Made by a program: the position numbers and the translations under genes. From a virus, in the IMG/VR virus record IMGVR_UViG_3300032893_000191, positions 1 through 35,656 of that record: a stretch of 35,656 bases of DNA, one strand, 5' to 3'. The notes under the pieces were generated by a model, which worked only from the letters and a program-made list of their open reading frames with translations, was not told where the DNA came from and made no database searches. Below, piece after piece: positions 30,073 to 35,139 of the stretch; positions within the stretch are counted from its first letter, which is position 1; every line of letters begins with the position of its first letter.

Positions 30073-30282
30073 ATGGCAAAGGATATAAAAAATATGAAGC
30101 GAGGCGTCGTGACCGAAGCATTGCCAAATGCTCAATTCAGGGTTGATGTTGATGGACGGATTGTCATTTGCTATTTGGCGGGTCGCATGATGAAAGCGAA
30201 TATCCGAGTTTCGATAGGTGACAAAGTTGATGTCATTTTGCCTCCGGGTAGTGACCGGGGAAGGATTGATTGGCGATACTAA
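30073..30282 (+). CDS. infA: Translation initiation factor IF-1 homologue
   Basis: The 69-residue protein matches bacterial IF-1 along its whole length: start MAKDIKNMKRGVVTEALPN, then FRVDVDGRIVICYLAGRMMK, NIRVSIGDKVDVILPPG and DRGRIDWRY. The OB-fold landmarks GxVxExLPNAxFRV, GxMxKxxIR, GDKVxV and GRIxxR are all present. IF-1 binds the ribosomal A site on the 30S subunit and helps start-site selection. It follows the zinc-ribbon gene with no gap and precedes the methyltransferase. A phage copy is unusual. It may bias host ribosomes toward phage mRNAs, which here appear to lack Shine-Dalgarno sequences and often leaders. Confidence 0.9.
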   Translation: MAKDIKNMKRGVVTEALPNAQFRVDVDGRIVICYLAGRMMKANIRVSIGDKVDVILPPGSDRGRIDWRY

Positions 30283-30283
30283 A

Positions 30284-31186
30284 ATGAAATGGATTCATCT
30301 CGATCTATTTTCAGGAATAGGCGGAGCTTCTTACGCGGCCGATCAGGTTTGGGGAAAAGAAAAATTTGAGCATATTTTTTGCGACAATGAACCCTTTGCA
30401 CAACAAGTCCTCAAAAAACATTGGCCCACGGCGCAAATCTACGGTGACATCAGGACTCTTACCAACTCCGAGAGCAGGGAAGCAGACGCCTCAAAGTCGG
30501 TCGGACTTCACGCCGAATCTCGCCTACGAAGTGGAAACGGCATTGCTTCCGACGCCGGAAGCGAAGAACAGCGAGGGGTATCAGGTGGCTCACGGGAAAA
30601 AATATCCGAGATTAGGCAATGTTATCTCCTCACCGGCGGATTCCCGTGTCAGCCATTTTCCCAAGCCGGACGAAGAAAAGGAACGGAAGACAACCGCTAT
30701 CTCTGGCCTGAAATGTTTAGGGTTATTCGAGAGTTCAAACCAAAATGGATCGTCGGTGAAAATGTTGCGGGACTTGTTACTTGGAGCGACGGTTTGGTAC
30801 TCCGACAAGTGTTCGCTGATTTGGAAAGCGCAGGATACGAAGTCGAAGCATTTGTTATACCGGCTGTTGCCCTCAACGCGCCGCACCGGAGGGATCGCGT
30901 TTGGATTATTGCCAACGCCGGCGGCGCGCGACGGAAAAGGAAGAGATGGCAATGGAATGGACGGGTTCAAAAGGCGCCAGGGAGGACCATCTTTACCGGA
31001 ATGGATAGCAAAAAAATATGGAAAAGAAGCCCGCCTGAACCCGCAATTTTCAGAATGGCTGATGGGTTATATCCCGGGATGGACAGAGTTAAACGGCTCA
31101 AAGCTATCGGCAACGCGTGGGTTCCGCAAGTCGCAATCGAAATCTTTAAAGCAATAAAAAAAGTAGATGAAAATATCATTAAATAA
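30284..31186 (+). CDS. C5-cytosine DNA methyltransferase
   Basis: The start at ATG 30284 gives 300 residues with all main motifs: I DLFSGIGG (7-14), IV GGFPCQPFSQAG (118-129, catalytic C122), VI ENV (159-161), VIII HRRDRVWI (201-208) and X AIGNAWVPQVA (274-284). The enzyme transfers a methyl group from S-adenosylmethionine to carbon 5 of cytosine. Between GDIRTL and motif IV is an abnormal insert of about 55 polar residues (60-115), and the target-recognition region is short. Over nearly the whole length a second recognisable protein is encoded in another frame. It probably protects phage DNA from host restriction. No partner restriction enzyme is seen. Confidence 0.9.
   Translation: MKWIHLDLFSGIGGASYAADQVWGKEKFEHIFCDNEPFAQQVLKKHWPTAQIYGDIRTLTNSESREADASKSVGLHAESRLRSGNGIASDAGSEEQRGVSGGSREKISEIRQCYLLTGGFPCQPFSQAGRRKGTEDNRYLWPEMFRVIREFKPKWIVGENVAGLVTWSDGLVLRQVFADLESAGYEVEAFVIPAVALNAPHRRDRVWIIANAGGARRKRKRWQWNGRVQKAPGRTIFTGMDSKKIWKRSPPEPAIFRMADGLYPGMDRVKRLKAIGNAWVPQVAIEIFKAIKKVDENIIK
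30387..31157 (+). CDS. Overlapping-frame protein with LLPTP repeats
   Basis: Lies wholly inside the methyltransferase gene in the +1 frame. I suggest ATG 30387 (256 residues); TTG 30366 is an alternative. It shows features of a phage-associated protein family with LPTP repeats: LLPTPRAGKQTP, LLPTPEAKNSEGY, LLPTPAARDGKG, then LNPQFSEWLMGYIPGWTEL and a KSQSKSLKQ end. The middle (SVKMLRDLLLGATVWYSDKC, LIWKAQ, LLYRLLPSTRRTGG) matches the same family as I know it. In other genomes such sequence is found as, or fused to, a methyltransferase-related protein. The long open frame with coherent motifs argues against a random shadow. Role unknown. Confidence 0.55.
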   Translation: MNPLHNKSSKNIGPRRKSTVTSGLLPTPRAGKQTPQSRSDFTPNLAYEVETALLPTPEAKNSEGYQVAHGKKYPRLGNVISSPADSRVSHFPKPDEEKERKTTAISGLKCLGLFESSNQNGSSVKMLRDLLLGATVWYSDKCSLIWKAQDTKSKHLLYRLLPSTRRTGGIAFGLLPTPAARDGKGRDGNGMDGFKRRQGGPSLPEWIAKKYGKEARLNPQFSEWLMGYIPGWTELNGSKLSATRGFRKSQSKSLKQ

Positions 31187-31269
31187 AACCGACGCGTTTG
31201 ATCTTCAAAAACTCATTGATAGCCGTCTTTTGGTTCAAGCCAATTCAGGCGGTGGAAAATTATAAAACC

Positions 31270-31737
31270 ATGCAAGAAATAAAAGCACCCCATTCTCTAT
31301 ATGGTTCTCAATTTATGACGAAGATTTTTCTTGCGGGCAGTATTGAGATGGGTGCCGCAGAAAATTGGCAAGAACGAGTAAAGCGATTATTGGCTGATCG
31401 TGAACATATCATGCTTTTCAATCCGCGCCGAGATGATTGGGATAGCTCATGGGTTCAAAGCATCGAGAATGATAAATTTGTAGAGCAGGTCACTTGGGAA
31501 CTCGAAGCGATGGAACGGGCAGATATTATTTTGATGTACTTTGATCCGCCGACAAAATCACCGATTTCTCTTTTAGAGTTGGGATTGTGGGCGAATAACC
31601 GTGGCAATCATACAAGCAAATTGCGCGTAGTATGCCCCAAAGGATTTTGGCGGAAAGGCAACGTTGATATTGTTTGCGCTCGCTATAATGTCCCTCAATT
31701 CAAAACAATAGAAGATGCCATAATTGACATATCATAA
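31270..31737 (+). CDS. Nucleoside 2-deoxyribosyltransferase-like protein
   Basis: The core starts KIFLAGSIEMGAAENWQERV, the IFLAGxI opening of the nucleoside deoxyribosyltransferase / DUF4406-type fold. It continues with LFNPRRDDWDSSW, WELEAMERADIILMYFDP and SPISLLELGLWA, in which the last Glu is the usual catalytic position. I give the start as ATG 31270 (155 residues); ATG 31315 (140 residues) would place the core right at the N-terminus. Such enzymes exchange bases on deoxynucleosides or hydrolyse nucleotides. In a phage early region it could supply or reshape the nucleotide pool, possibly linked to the neighbouring cytosine methyltransferase. Confidence 0.75.
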   Translation: MQEIKAPHSLYGSQFMTKIFLAGSIEMGAAENWQERVKRLLADREHIMLFNPRRDDWDSSWVQSIENDKFVEQVTWELEAMERADIILMYFDPPTKSPISLLELGLWANNRGNHTSKLRVVCPKGFWRKGNVDIVCARYNVPQFKTIEDAIIDIS

Positions 31738-31738
31738 A

Positions 31739-31747
31739 TGTTATAAT
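31739..31747 (+). promoter_or_regulatory. Extended -10 promoter (TGTTATAAT), leaderless geometry
   Basis: TG at 31739-31740 and a perfect TATAAT at 31742-31747, exactly 6 nt before ATG 31754. A TTGACA occurs at 31724-31729, but only 12 nt upstream, too close for a standard -35. Confidence 0.65.
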
Positions 31748-31753
31748 TATATT

Positions 31754-32365
31754 ATGCCAAAAGGAATTTTTGTTCGTAAACCTCTATCGGAAGAACACAA
31801 GCGCAATATCAGCGTGGCTTTGATGGGCCGTATTGTTTCGCCCGAAACGCGAGAGAAAATGCGCCACAATCCGCAGAATTTCAAAAAGGGGCATACCGTA
31901 TCTCTTGAAACTCGAATGAAAATGCGGAATAGCCCGACTGCTTTCAAGCCGGGACATGAGGTTACGGATGAAATGCGGGCGAAACTTCGCAAAGCAAGTT
32001 TGGGAGTGAAGCCAACGGTTGAGGCGTTGGCTAAAAGGAGTTTGGCAATGCGAGGTGAAAATAATCCGAGTTGGAAAGGGGGCGTAACTGAATTGCGTAA
32101 TGCGATAAGAAATTGCTTCAAGTACCGGCTATGGCGTTTTGATATTTTCAAGCGAGATAATTTTACTTGCGTATGGTGCGGCGCAAGGGGAGTTTATTTG
32201 GAGGCAGATCATAACCCCATTCCTTTCTATAAAATCCTTATTGAATATAAAATCAACACGATTGATGATGCTTTGGCTTGTGAGAAACTTTGGGATATTA
32301 GCAATGGTCGAACGCTTTGCAAACCTTGTCATAACACCACGAAAAATGGCCGCGCAAAAAACTAA
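31754..32365 (+). CDS. HNH homing endonuclease with NUMOD-type repeats
   Basis: The start at ATG 31754 gives 203 residues. The N-terminal half has repeated short helices of NUMOD3 type: LSEEHKRNISVALMG, VSPETREKMRHN, VSLETRMKMRNS and VTDEMRAKLRKASLG, followed by GENNPSWKGG. The C-terminal half is an HNH nuclease with zinc ligands: CVWCGARG, the ADH of LEADHNPIPF, and NGRTLCKPCHNTTK. Such genes are free-standing homing endonucleases that nick a recognition site and copy themselves into related genomes. It has its own leaderless promoter, which supports independent insertion. Composition looks a little more A/T-rich than the flanks. Confidence 0.9.
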   Translation: MPKGIFVRKPLSEEHKRNISVALMGRIVSPETREKMRHNPQNFKKGHTVSLETRMKMRNSPTAFKPGHEVTDEMRAKLRKASLGVKPTVEALAKRSLAMRGENNPSWKGGVTELRNAIRNCFKYRLWRFDIFKRDNFTCVWCGARGVYLEADHNPIPFYKILIEYKINTIDDALACEKLWDISNGRTLCKPCHNTTKNGRAKN

Positions 32366-33241: not shown

Positions 33242-34099
33242 ATGTCAAAAAAAATCAAAAAAACTAAAAAACCGAAGAAGACAGTTAGCCGGAAGCGAAA
33301 GGTGGTTGCACCGGCTCAACCCGGAGCTATGGCGATCATTCCTTATTCGGAGATCGCAAAGCCCGAAACGTATCAGGGCAAATACACGCTCATTCCGACG
33401 CTTTTCAATGAGCGTCAGATAATGAGCATCATTGCTCCGACGCCGAAGAATATCATCAAACAGCGTCCGGGCAAGGGCGGAGGAAAATGGGATTATGTGC
33501 CGGGGTGGTGGTTTAAGAAAAAGGCGAATTTCGTCTTTGGGTTCTCTCACGACTTCGATATTTTGGGCGAGCGCGTTGATGGCGATTTTATCACCGTCAA
33601 AGGCAAGCTCACGGTTCGCAACCCGAAGACCGGAGCCGTGATTGCATCGAAATCAGATTATGGAAGTGCGGCGATCAAGTATTGCAAGGGATGTAAGCAT
33701 ACGCCGGAAAATTACCTTGATATTGGAAACGATTTCAAGGCGGCGCAGACGGATTGTTTCAAGCGGTGCATGGTTCAATTCGGATTTGCAATGGACGTTT
33801 ATGGGACCGGAGAGATGCACGACAACGATATTCCGGTTCAGGGCGATCCGAATGACGAGCCGCAGGGACCGACTGATGCTCATGGCAAGGTTGTTGAAAC
33901 CGCAGGGATTCAGCCGGAAACCGAGCAGATTATGAAGATTTGCAAGGACTTGGGAGCGACAAGCGGTCCGCAAATCTTCGCGGGAATCAAAAAAGTAACG
34001 GGCTATGACTTGAAGTCGTGGGCGCTCACCCCGACGCAAGCCAAAGACATCTTGTCGAAGATGTTGGCCTACAAACATCAAAAGCAAAATGGCAAATAA
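33242..34099 (+). CDS. Rad52-like single-strand annealing protein
   Basis: 285 residues. After a very basic N-terminus (about 1-22) comes a domain with the features of Rad52/Rad22-type annealing proteins: PGWWFKKKANFVFGFSHDF, a beta section (FITVKGKLTVRNPKTGAVIA), then DIGNDFKAAQTDCFKRCMVQ with FGFAMDVYG. The last is close to the conserved DIGNaxKAAxTDAlKrc...G...YG signature. A CKGC pair lies in the middle, which may be a zinc site. The C-terminal 80 residues are a flexible linker and a small helical tail. It anneals complementary single strands in phage recombination. The PD-(D/E)XK nuclease downstream is the natural exonuclease partner. Confidence 0.8.
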   Translation: MSKKIKKTKKPKKTVSRKRKVVAPAQPGAMAIIPYSEIAKPETYQGKYTLIPTLFNERQIMSIIAPTPKNIIKQRPGKGGGKWDYVPGWWFKKKANFVFGFSHDFDILGERVDGDFITVKGKLTVRNPKTGAVIASKSDYGSAAIKYCKGCKHTPENYLDIGNDFKAAQTDCFKRCMVQFGFAMDVYGTGEMHDNDIPVQGDPNDEPQGPTDAHGKVVETAGIQPETEQIMKICKDLGATSGPQIFAGIKKVTGYDLKSWALTPTQAKDILSKMLAYKHQKQNGK

Positions 34100-34346
34100 G
34101 ACGAAGGTAAAATCCGAGAATAAAATAGCGGGTAAGATCGAAGTGGAAGTGCAGGAGTTAGATCAGAAGGCGATGTTTATGACGCAACATTTTGGAAACG
34201 GCTCATTTGGAGATACAAAGTTTGATGCGTCGTTTACGCTTCCGGCGATGGGATTGATAGTTTCGGTGAACGGGAAGCGCTATAAGATTTCCAGTCAAAA
34301 TCTTATTGAAGAAATAATCAAACTACACGAAAAAGATGGCAAGTAA
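34089..34346 (+). CDS. Hypothetical protein between recombination genes
   Basis: An 85-residue protein overlapping both neighbours (11 nt at each end). It has a basic N-terminus, a beta-rich middle (FDASFTLPAMGLIVSVNG) and a C-terminal helix (NLIEEIIKLHEKDGK). No motif is recognised. Its location between annealing protein and nuclease suggests a role in the same recombination system. Confidence 0.55.
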   Translation: MANKTKVKSENKIAGKIEVEVQELDQKAMFMTQHFGNGSFGDTKFDASFTLPAMGLIVSVNGKRYKISSQNLIEEIIKLHEKDGK

Positions 34347-35139
34347 AAAATCGGCTGTTGTTGCCCCGAAGGAAACAGGGATCATAACGACCCATCCGTA
34401 TAAAGATGTTTCCATGACTTTCGATGTTAGCCGACATCTCTTTTCCGTCGGAGGTCCGTTCATCCAAAAGAAGTTCAAGACCCTCGATCACCGGCCAAAG
34501 TCGGTGACGGGGTTCACGAAGGCGGTTGATAAGTCGTTCGCCCTTATGTCGTGGCAAGAACGGATCACCAAGGAGCATCTTTTGATGAAGCTGAAATCAA
34601 AAGTTGTTATCACCGAAGACATTGTGATCGAAGCGACCGGCTTGCATCGCGTTAGGAAGCAGGAAGCGGCCACAGCCGGTACGATAGCGCACAAGTGGGC
34701 CGAGGATTTTGCCAAGGGGTTGAATCCGCCCATGCCAGAGGATGAGAAGGTTAAAAACGCCGTCCTCGCATTCTTGAAATGGCTTGATGAGGAAAAGTTT
34801 AAGATCAAAATTGGCGAAAAGCATTTGTACTCCAAGAAGTACGATTACGCCGGTATCGCCGATGCCGTGGCGACCCGAAAGGGCAAAACGGCGCTCATTG
34901 ACTACAAAACTTCATCGGGTATTTACGACGAAATGATGTTCCAAGTTTCGGCGTATGCCAACGCGCTCGATGAAATGGGGATCAAGGTTGATGAGCGGTG
35001 GATCGTCCGCTTTGATAAAGAAAGCGGCGACTTCTTCCCGGTCCCATGCACCAACCAAAAGGCCGATTTCGATGCCTTCCTTGGTTGCCGGGCCATCGTA
35101 TTGCGTCAGGAAGAAATCAAAAAGGAAAAAGGATTCTGA
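34336..35139 (+). CDS. PD-(D/E)XK exonuclease (RecB/Cas4-like)
   Basis: 267 residues. The nuclease core is visible in order: GTIAHKWAEDFAKG (His/Glu motif), LYSKKYDYAGIADAVA (Asp motif), TALIDYKTSSGIYDEMM (D-x-K motif), and QVSAYANALDEMG (Q-x-x-x-Y motif). These are hallmarks of RecB-family nucleases. An N-terminal 90-residue part may aid DNA binding. With a Rad52-like protein two genes upstream it forms a phage recombination pair: the nuclease resects DNA ends and the annealing protein pairs the exposed strands. The start overlaps the previous gene by 11 nt. Confidence 0.85.
   Translation: MASKKSAVVAPKETGIITTHPYKDVSMTFDVSRHLFSVGGPFIQKKFKTLDHRPKSVTGFTKAVDKSFALMSWQERITKEHLLMKLKSKVVITEDIVIEATGLHRVRKQEAATAGTIAHKWAEDFAKGLNPPMPEDEKVKNAVLAFLKWLDEEKFKIKIGEKHLYSKKYDYAGIADAVATRKGKTALIDYKTSSGIYDEMMFQVSAYANALDEMGIKVDERWIVRFDKESGDFFPVPCTNQKADFDAFLGCRAIVLRQEEIKKEKGF

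Follow-up and report, generated by a model that had tools for sequence, protein, structure and literature searches.

Two overlapping reading frames of a tailed-phage cytosine methyltransferase gene are both conserved and are most likely the halves of one split enzyme

Two functional proteins seldom share a long stretch of DNA on one strand, and where they seem to, proof is usually difficult. The window analysed here, the whole 35,656 nt of a 35.7 kb virus record encoding tailed-phage terminase, head and tail families, contains a C5-cytosine methyltransferase (C5-MTase) gene whose +1 frame is open across most of its length, and this raises the question of whether the second frame encodes a protein and how that protein relates to the methyltransferase. 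The frame 0 product was termed alpha and the +1 product beta. The elements referred to below are as follows; L numbers denote homologous loci, and N-slot and C-slot denote positions within alpha's III-IV loop and between motifs VIII and IX, respectively.

30284..31186, + strand: alpha, C5-cytosine DNA methyltransferase catalytic subunit, 300 aa (PF00145, E 1.1e-38; phrog_363, E 2.7e-64)
30302..30325, + strand: alpha motif I, DLFSGIGG (from the sequence and alignment A7)
30366..31157, + strand: beta, nested +1 ORF, predicted specificity subunit with target-recognition (TRD) cassettes and a motif-IX-like segment (phrog_1008, E 3.8e-31)
30456..30542, + strand: beta N-slot cassette 1 (LLPTPRAGKQTPQSRSDFTPNLAYEVETA), lying in the III-IV loop of alpha; 78% aa identity with the L014 N-slot cassette
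30461..30622, + strand: alpha III-IV insert, absent from most homologues (alignment A2), encoded by the N-slot cassettes
30543..30640, + strand: beta N-slot cassette 2 (LLPTPEAKNSEGYQVAHGKKYPRLGNVIS...), 96%/82% identical to the L175/L177 N-slot cassettes and 74% to an L068 C-slot cassette
30644..30652, + strand: alpha motif IV, catalytic PCQ (invariant in alignment A7)
30758..30766, + strand: alpha motif VI, ENV (E and N invariant, V at least 90% in alignment A7)
30884..30898, + strand: alpha motif VIII, HRRDR (H, R and R invariant in alignment A7)
30906..31034, + strand: beta C-slot cassette (LLPTPAARDGKG...), between motifs VIII and IX, where a canonical TRD lies
31035..31091, + strand: beta motif-IX-like segment LNPQFSEWLMGYIPGWTEL (P, E, W, M and G near invariant in alignment A6)
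31109..31126, + strand: alpha motif X, GNAWVP (G, N, V and P invariant in alignment A7)

The gene lies immediately downstream of a phage-encoded homologue of translation initiation factor IF-1 (30073-30282; PF01176, E 1.2e-12), which ends 1 nt before the alpha start codon. It is followed by genes for a nucleoside 2-deoxyribosyltransferase-like protein (31198-31737), a NUMOD3/HNH-type homing endonuclease (31724-32365), a Rad52-like annealing protein (33242-34099) and a PD-(D/E)XK exonuclease (34336-35139).

Motifs I, IV (PCQ), VI (ENV), VIII and X occur in order in frame 0, which places alpha in the C5-cytosine MTase class. The first-pass annotation credited this frame with all major C5-MTase motifs; that holds for motifs I-VIII and X, whereas motif IX, which a canonical single-chain enzyme has in the same chain, is absent from frame 0 of the window's alpha, and a motif-IX-like segment is found in the +1 frame. 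The AF2 model of alpha (pTM 0.74) has a confident Rossmann core and motif X helix, and Foldseek matched it to M.HhaI and relatives (M.HhaI, E 8e-14). Residues 212-266 correspond to the TRD region read out of frame, and about this stretch (~212-266) the model is of low confidence or unstructured and disorder is predicted. Canonical C5-MTases carry their elements in the order I-VIII, TRD, IX, X, and this order is restored if beta is slotted between motifs VIII and X of alpha.

Beta spans 278 codons from stop to stop and 263 aa from the longest start candidate, TTG 30366; the likelier starts are ATG 30387 and GTG 30444, which lies one codon past the ATG of relatives, and none of the window's own candidates is preceded by a strong Shine-Dalgarno (SD) sequence. 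The open +1 frame and its three LLPTP repeats, reported earlier, were confirmed (repeats at about 30456, 30543 and 30906), as was the sharing of codons at the downstream motif, where EWLMGYIPGW of beta and RMADGLYPGM of alpha are encoded by identical bases. All 55 members of the beta alignment (55/55) matched phrog_1008, while profile searches of Pfam and NCBIfam gave no entry for beta and a PDB sequence search gave no match. AF2 modelled beta alone poorly (pLDDT 60, pTM 0.25), with no fold match by Foldseek; this might be expected of a subunit modelled without its partner, and counts as no evidence for that. By its pattern and position, LNPxxxEWLMGxxxGWT appears to be motif IX, a pattern-level call to which hhalign of the beta profile against canonical C5-MTases, without a significant match, lent no support.

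How much of beta could arise by chance was estimated by shuffling alpha's synonymous codons with the alpha protein and codon counts kept. A +1 frame open for at least 278 codons arose in 18 of 100,000 permutations. The long open frame by itself is modest evidence, and a test against a beta profile was therefore added. With a profile trained on 109 other betas, from which the window and its nearest relative (L014) were excluded, the window's +1 frame scored 206.5 bits, compared with a mean of 77.6 bits (SD 12, maximum 130) for 2000 alpha-preserving permutations. Alpha's conserved motifs (IV-VIII) therefore account for about 78 of the 206 bits; roughly one third of the similarity to beta is forced by them and the remainder is not. 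The coherent family-like motifs noted earlier in the +1 frame accordingly stand for the TRD/IX part, and over motifs IV-VIII are partly a by-product of alpha.

We then compared 253 loci, the window itself among them (L001), which were collected by scanning viral and bacterial collections with beta or with alpha alone and from annotated phage records. The best beta match overlapped alpha in the same +1 register at 253/253 loci, in viruses and in diverse bacteria. Retrieval with beta selects loci that have it; the 80 retrieved with alpha alone, 67 of them clean by strict criteria, showed the +1 register too. Frames were compared using motif IV (PCQ), the IX-like motif and motif X as anchors. Motif IX was in +1 and motif X back in frame 0 at 193 loci, and in nearly every anchored locus having both motifs the IX frame was the X frame + 1; most exceptions kept this one-frame offset between IX and X and departed only in their register against motif IV. 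Both frames were open from motif IV to IX at 190 of the 192 cleanly anchored loci, where synonymous permutation predicted 1.9. This constraint falls mostly on the 300 nt that follow motif IV, across which the beta frame stayed open in just 2.5% of permutations. In a prevalence probe of one bacterial order, only the seed itself was recovered (1/151 genomes at E<=1e-15); the distribution in that order is sporadic, as expected for phage genes.

In canonical single-chain phage controls (P2 BspRI-like, P0093, Miller, BM15 and Javan122), motif IX was in frame 0 (e.g. RLTPRECxRLQGFPD) and no motif IX was found in +1. In Royals2015, CarlMeissner, SBP4phi2, HC6 and Soft, where the records list an ordinary methylase or a hypothetical protein, we found a +1 beta that carries the IX-like motif and is not annotated, and RefSeq-annotated E. 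coli prophage genes also hide a +1 beta with the same nesting. Among culturable phages, Lily, Lc-Nu and Royals2015 share this nesting. The layout is common to hundreds of phages and bacteria, and beta is usually missing from the annotation. Loci lacking the beta annotation include L255, L257-L260 and L264-L267, from a mycobacteriophage, from enterobacterial and Stenotrophomonas phages and from E. coli prophages. Separately, gp47 of Streptococcus phage P0093 (L256:1232-1651), annotated as a nested 'DNA methyltransferase', looks like an out-of-frame by-product; it has neither TRD nor IX, and the gene in which it lies encodes a canonical single-chain enzyme. The copy in Paenibacillus macquariensis (L168:2134-3066) has motif IX in the alpha frame, a broken beta and no AG tract, and appears to be a fused or frameshifted version.

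Differences were counted per alpha codon position in 64 pairs of loci, none sharing a locus, although some pairs are mutually related. The rates at alpha positions 1/2/3 were.18/.13/.39 in the alpha-only N-terminus and.15/.09/.21 in motifs IV-VIII, an alpha-like pattern in which third positions varied about half as freely. They changed to.38/.23/.21 in the TRD overlap and.20/.04/.045 in the IX overlap, and were.21/.19/.47 past the beta stop. In the TRD/IX stretch, changes thus gather at the first position of alpha codons, the third in beta. These rates indicate that beta holds the information in TRD/IX and that alpha dominates IV-VIII. For the window and L014 alone, the differences ran 15/6/37 in IV-VIII, with alpha third positions dominating, 22/7/11 in the N-slot insert, a beta-like pattern, and 32/27/31 in the TRD, where the alignment is poor and no clear pattern was seen.

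Taken together, overlapping coding at alpha/beta is real. The first-pass annotation had proposed two genuine proteins, to be checked by collecting homologues, by comparing synonymous and non-synonymous change in both frames and by overlapping-gene tests. The frame relation kept in all 253 loci, the two frames open in 190 of 192 loci, the switch from alpha-like to beta-like rates in TRD/IX and a profile score beyond every permutation agree in bearing this out. None of the outcomes it had listed as counter-evidence (conservation of alpha alone, frequent stops in beta, or the LLPTP family proving an artefact) occurred.

That annotation had also pointed to a polar insert in alpha at the first LLPTP repeats, as if one frame had been shaped to accommodate the other. 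The coincidence is genuine; the insert, about 50 residues relative to most homologues, is explained by an extra pair of beta cassettes tolerated by alpha, the two N-slot cassettes in the III-IV loop giving rise to it. One or two PTP cassettes occupied the III-IV slot in 21/192 loci, and the second cassette slot is an unusual feature of the window phage and its relatives. The cassettes match different loci. DNA at 30422-30529 resembles L014 (79% identical over 108 nt), and DNA at 30549-30700 resembles L174/L177/L175, with cassette 2 up to 96% identical over 24 residues to L174, L175 and L177. From these DNA and aa matches, the insert appears to be a mosaic of cassettes read in beta, with alpha passing through as a loop. 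N-slot cassettes resembling the window's were also seen in Parcubacteria, Doudnabacteria, Moraniibacteriota and Omnitrophota bins (L094, L103, L110, L124 and L148), a hint that the host of the window phage is perhaps among candidate-phyla bacteria.

Across the loci, 493 LLPTP-headed units fell into 129 clusters. The same cluster recurs at different positions (the largest spans ordinal positions 0-5), the number of downstream cassettes varies from 0 to 5, and 13 of the 27 N-slot cassettes have C-slot relatives. Units at varying positions and sharing between N-slot and C-slot are the modularity that marks multispecific phage C5-MTases. By this analogy, the LLPTP units (~27-45 residues) are probably interchangeable recognition cassettes.

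Both frames are conserved and under selection, the motifs are partitioned between them, and cassettes have been exchanged between slots. The two proteins are most likely not unrelated products but halves of one enzyme, and we consider it highly probable that the locus encodes a naturally split, nested C5-cytosine MTase of a tailed phage, of the M.EcoHK31I kind, with the core in alpha and the recognition cassettes in beta. Alpha would provide cofactor binding, the catalytic PCQ and the C-terminal motif X helix. Beta, initiated inside alpha in +1, would supply the target-recognition region and the motif-IX-like segment, with one cassette in the usual VIII-IX slot and two in the extra slot within alpha's III-IV loop. 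The two chains would assemble into one working enzyme; the anatomy and the M.EcoHK31I precedent point to an alpha/beta heterodimer in which beta acts as the specificity subunit. In the TRD stretch alpha may serve as a tolerated linker while beta is informative, and over IV-VIII alpha would dominate while beta is kept open. The enzyme probably methylates the phage's own DNA as protection from host restriction, its recognition evolving as cassettes are exchanged.

Other explanations place the information in one frame or join the frames in one chain. If alpha were the sole gene, beta would be a by-product of alpha's motifs or codon usage and phrog_1008 an out-of-frame annotation artefact, as P0093 gp47 appears to be; alpha's protein alone does yield about 78 of the 206 bits. 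This is very improbable, since alpha-fixed permutations stopped at 130 bits, the IX region is nearly unchanged at alpha third positions (.045) and canonical C5-MTases have no IX-like motif in +1; for the family, the permutation and codon-position tests reject it computationally. The converse, that beta is functional over the TRD and alpha a decaying remnant in the window phage, draws on the free evolution (.38 at first positions) and predicted disorder of alpha's TRD-region reading. It is equally improbable, given that the window retains motifs I, IV, VI, VIII and X intact, that the loci as a whole conserve them and that substitution patterns are alpha-typical both before and after the overlap.

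Expression of beta by 0 to +1 ribosomal frameshifting from alpha, giving a longer fused chain with no separate start, is improbable. Alpha and beta resemble halves of a canonical enzyme that a shift after motif VIII would join, but beta need not then stay open upstream of the junction, and yet it is open from before motif IV in 190/192 loci, a state kept by so few synonymous permutations (2.5%) across the first 300 nt. Moreover, SD-preceded ATGs are enriched in the beta frame (114/190 loci versus 26/190 in a control frame), the N-slot cassettes above motif IV swap with C-slot ones and so are probably translated, and motif X in frame 0 would require a second shift. The open upstream part of beta and its SD-preceded ATGs favour an independent start; the fusion is disfavoured because that upstream part is open and conserved. 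A reading that is unlikely but carries more weight than these accepts the nested pair and both chains but assigns the LLPTP cassettes to folding, subunit contact or another role; it is compatible with the split enzyme and differs on the cassettes alone. The N-slot units lie far in sequence from the canonical TRD position, and a recognition role for the cassettes in general is predicted from sequence. Against this, units fill the VIII-IX slot, the usual place of C5-MTase TRDs; downstream they number from 0 to 5, and the same families recur at different positions, as in multispecific phage C5-MTases with exchangeable TRDs.

Simple repeats were also found in some loci. Three with near-identical flanks (L205:2511, L208:2511 and L210:1045) carry AG repeated 19, 17 and 10 times in the TRD stretch, and the register of IX and X relative to motif IV shifts as the tract length modulo 3 predicts (38, 34 and 20 nt). 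The pattern resembles phase-variable switching between the frames of the nested pair, though assembly error could also be its source. Downstream of motif IV, further AG tracts occur in L113, L126 and L169, and G9-10 tracts in L028, L036, L044, L050, L132 and L251. A wider proposal, which we put forward tentatively as somewhat less than an even prospect, is that widespread and largely unannotated split C5-MTases combine a shuffled library of overlapping-frame cassettes, the III-IV slot and an AG/G three-register switch that rejoins the frames, giving phase-variable specificity.

Little described so far, it appears, are the breadth of the family, the gaps in its annotation, the shuffling of cassettes under dual coding and, in some relatives, the apparent frame switching at AG repeats. 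With hundreds of copies, dual coding becomes testable down to codon position, and cassette exchange under dual coding offers a natural experiment on co-evolving frames. Should beta be the specificity subunit, then in phage and bacterial genomes, those of E. coli prophages and mycobacteriophages included, many genes annotated 'DNA cytosine methyltransferase' stand without their annotated specificity half, and cloning alpha alone or predicting alpha's target would mislead. The cassettes would be a ready set of parts for testing C5-MTase site choice.

The basic split arrangement is already known from one biochemical case, M.EcoHK31I; on nested C5-MTases in general, the papers covered by our literature search gave only brief mentions of that enzyme. 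The small ORF of M.EcoHK31I is reportedly nested in the large ORF in another frame, and the window likewise has a nested ORF in another frame. According to PMC3404938 (citing Lee et al. 1995), M.EcoHK31I (YGGCCR) is a two-polypeptide C5-MTase whose large polypeptide has motifs I-VIII and X and whose small one has motif IX, both being required; PMC3439449 also describes two polypeptides with motif IX in the small one. By pattern and position the window appears to show the same partition, the profile-profile match being non-significant and the likeness drawn from published descriptions. The window's beta differs in carrying LLPTP cassettes, of which two precede motif IV, and the substitution pattern places the TRD of the window family in beta, whereas the predicted TRD of M.EcoHK31I is assigned to the large subunit in PMC3404938. 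M.AquI (CYCGRG), also a two-polypeptide C5-MTase in that paper, is split end to end near the variable region, and its small subunit has the distal variable region, IX and X; in the window, alpha keeps motif X and beta lies within it in a different frame. Among multispecific phage C5-MTases, SPR has several recognition units and M.phiBssHII has TRDs at separated locations, as cited in PMC8936443 and PMC12707154, but these are single chains in a single frame, whereas the window's units lie in a frame overlapping the catalytic subunit. The out-of-frame HNH element of ShiLan (PMC11855218) is likewise a protein concealed in a phage methylase gene, but it is a mobile homing endonuclease within an insertion and no enzyme subunit. 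In Paenibacillus phage Lily, which unlike the window has no N-slot cassette and whose beta is annotated without function, LILY_62 and LILY_63 ('g62 internal gene') have the same alpha/beta nesting and are annotated as two genes.
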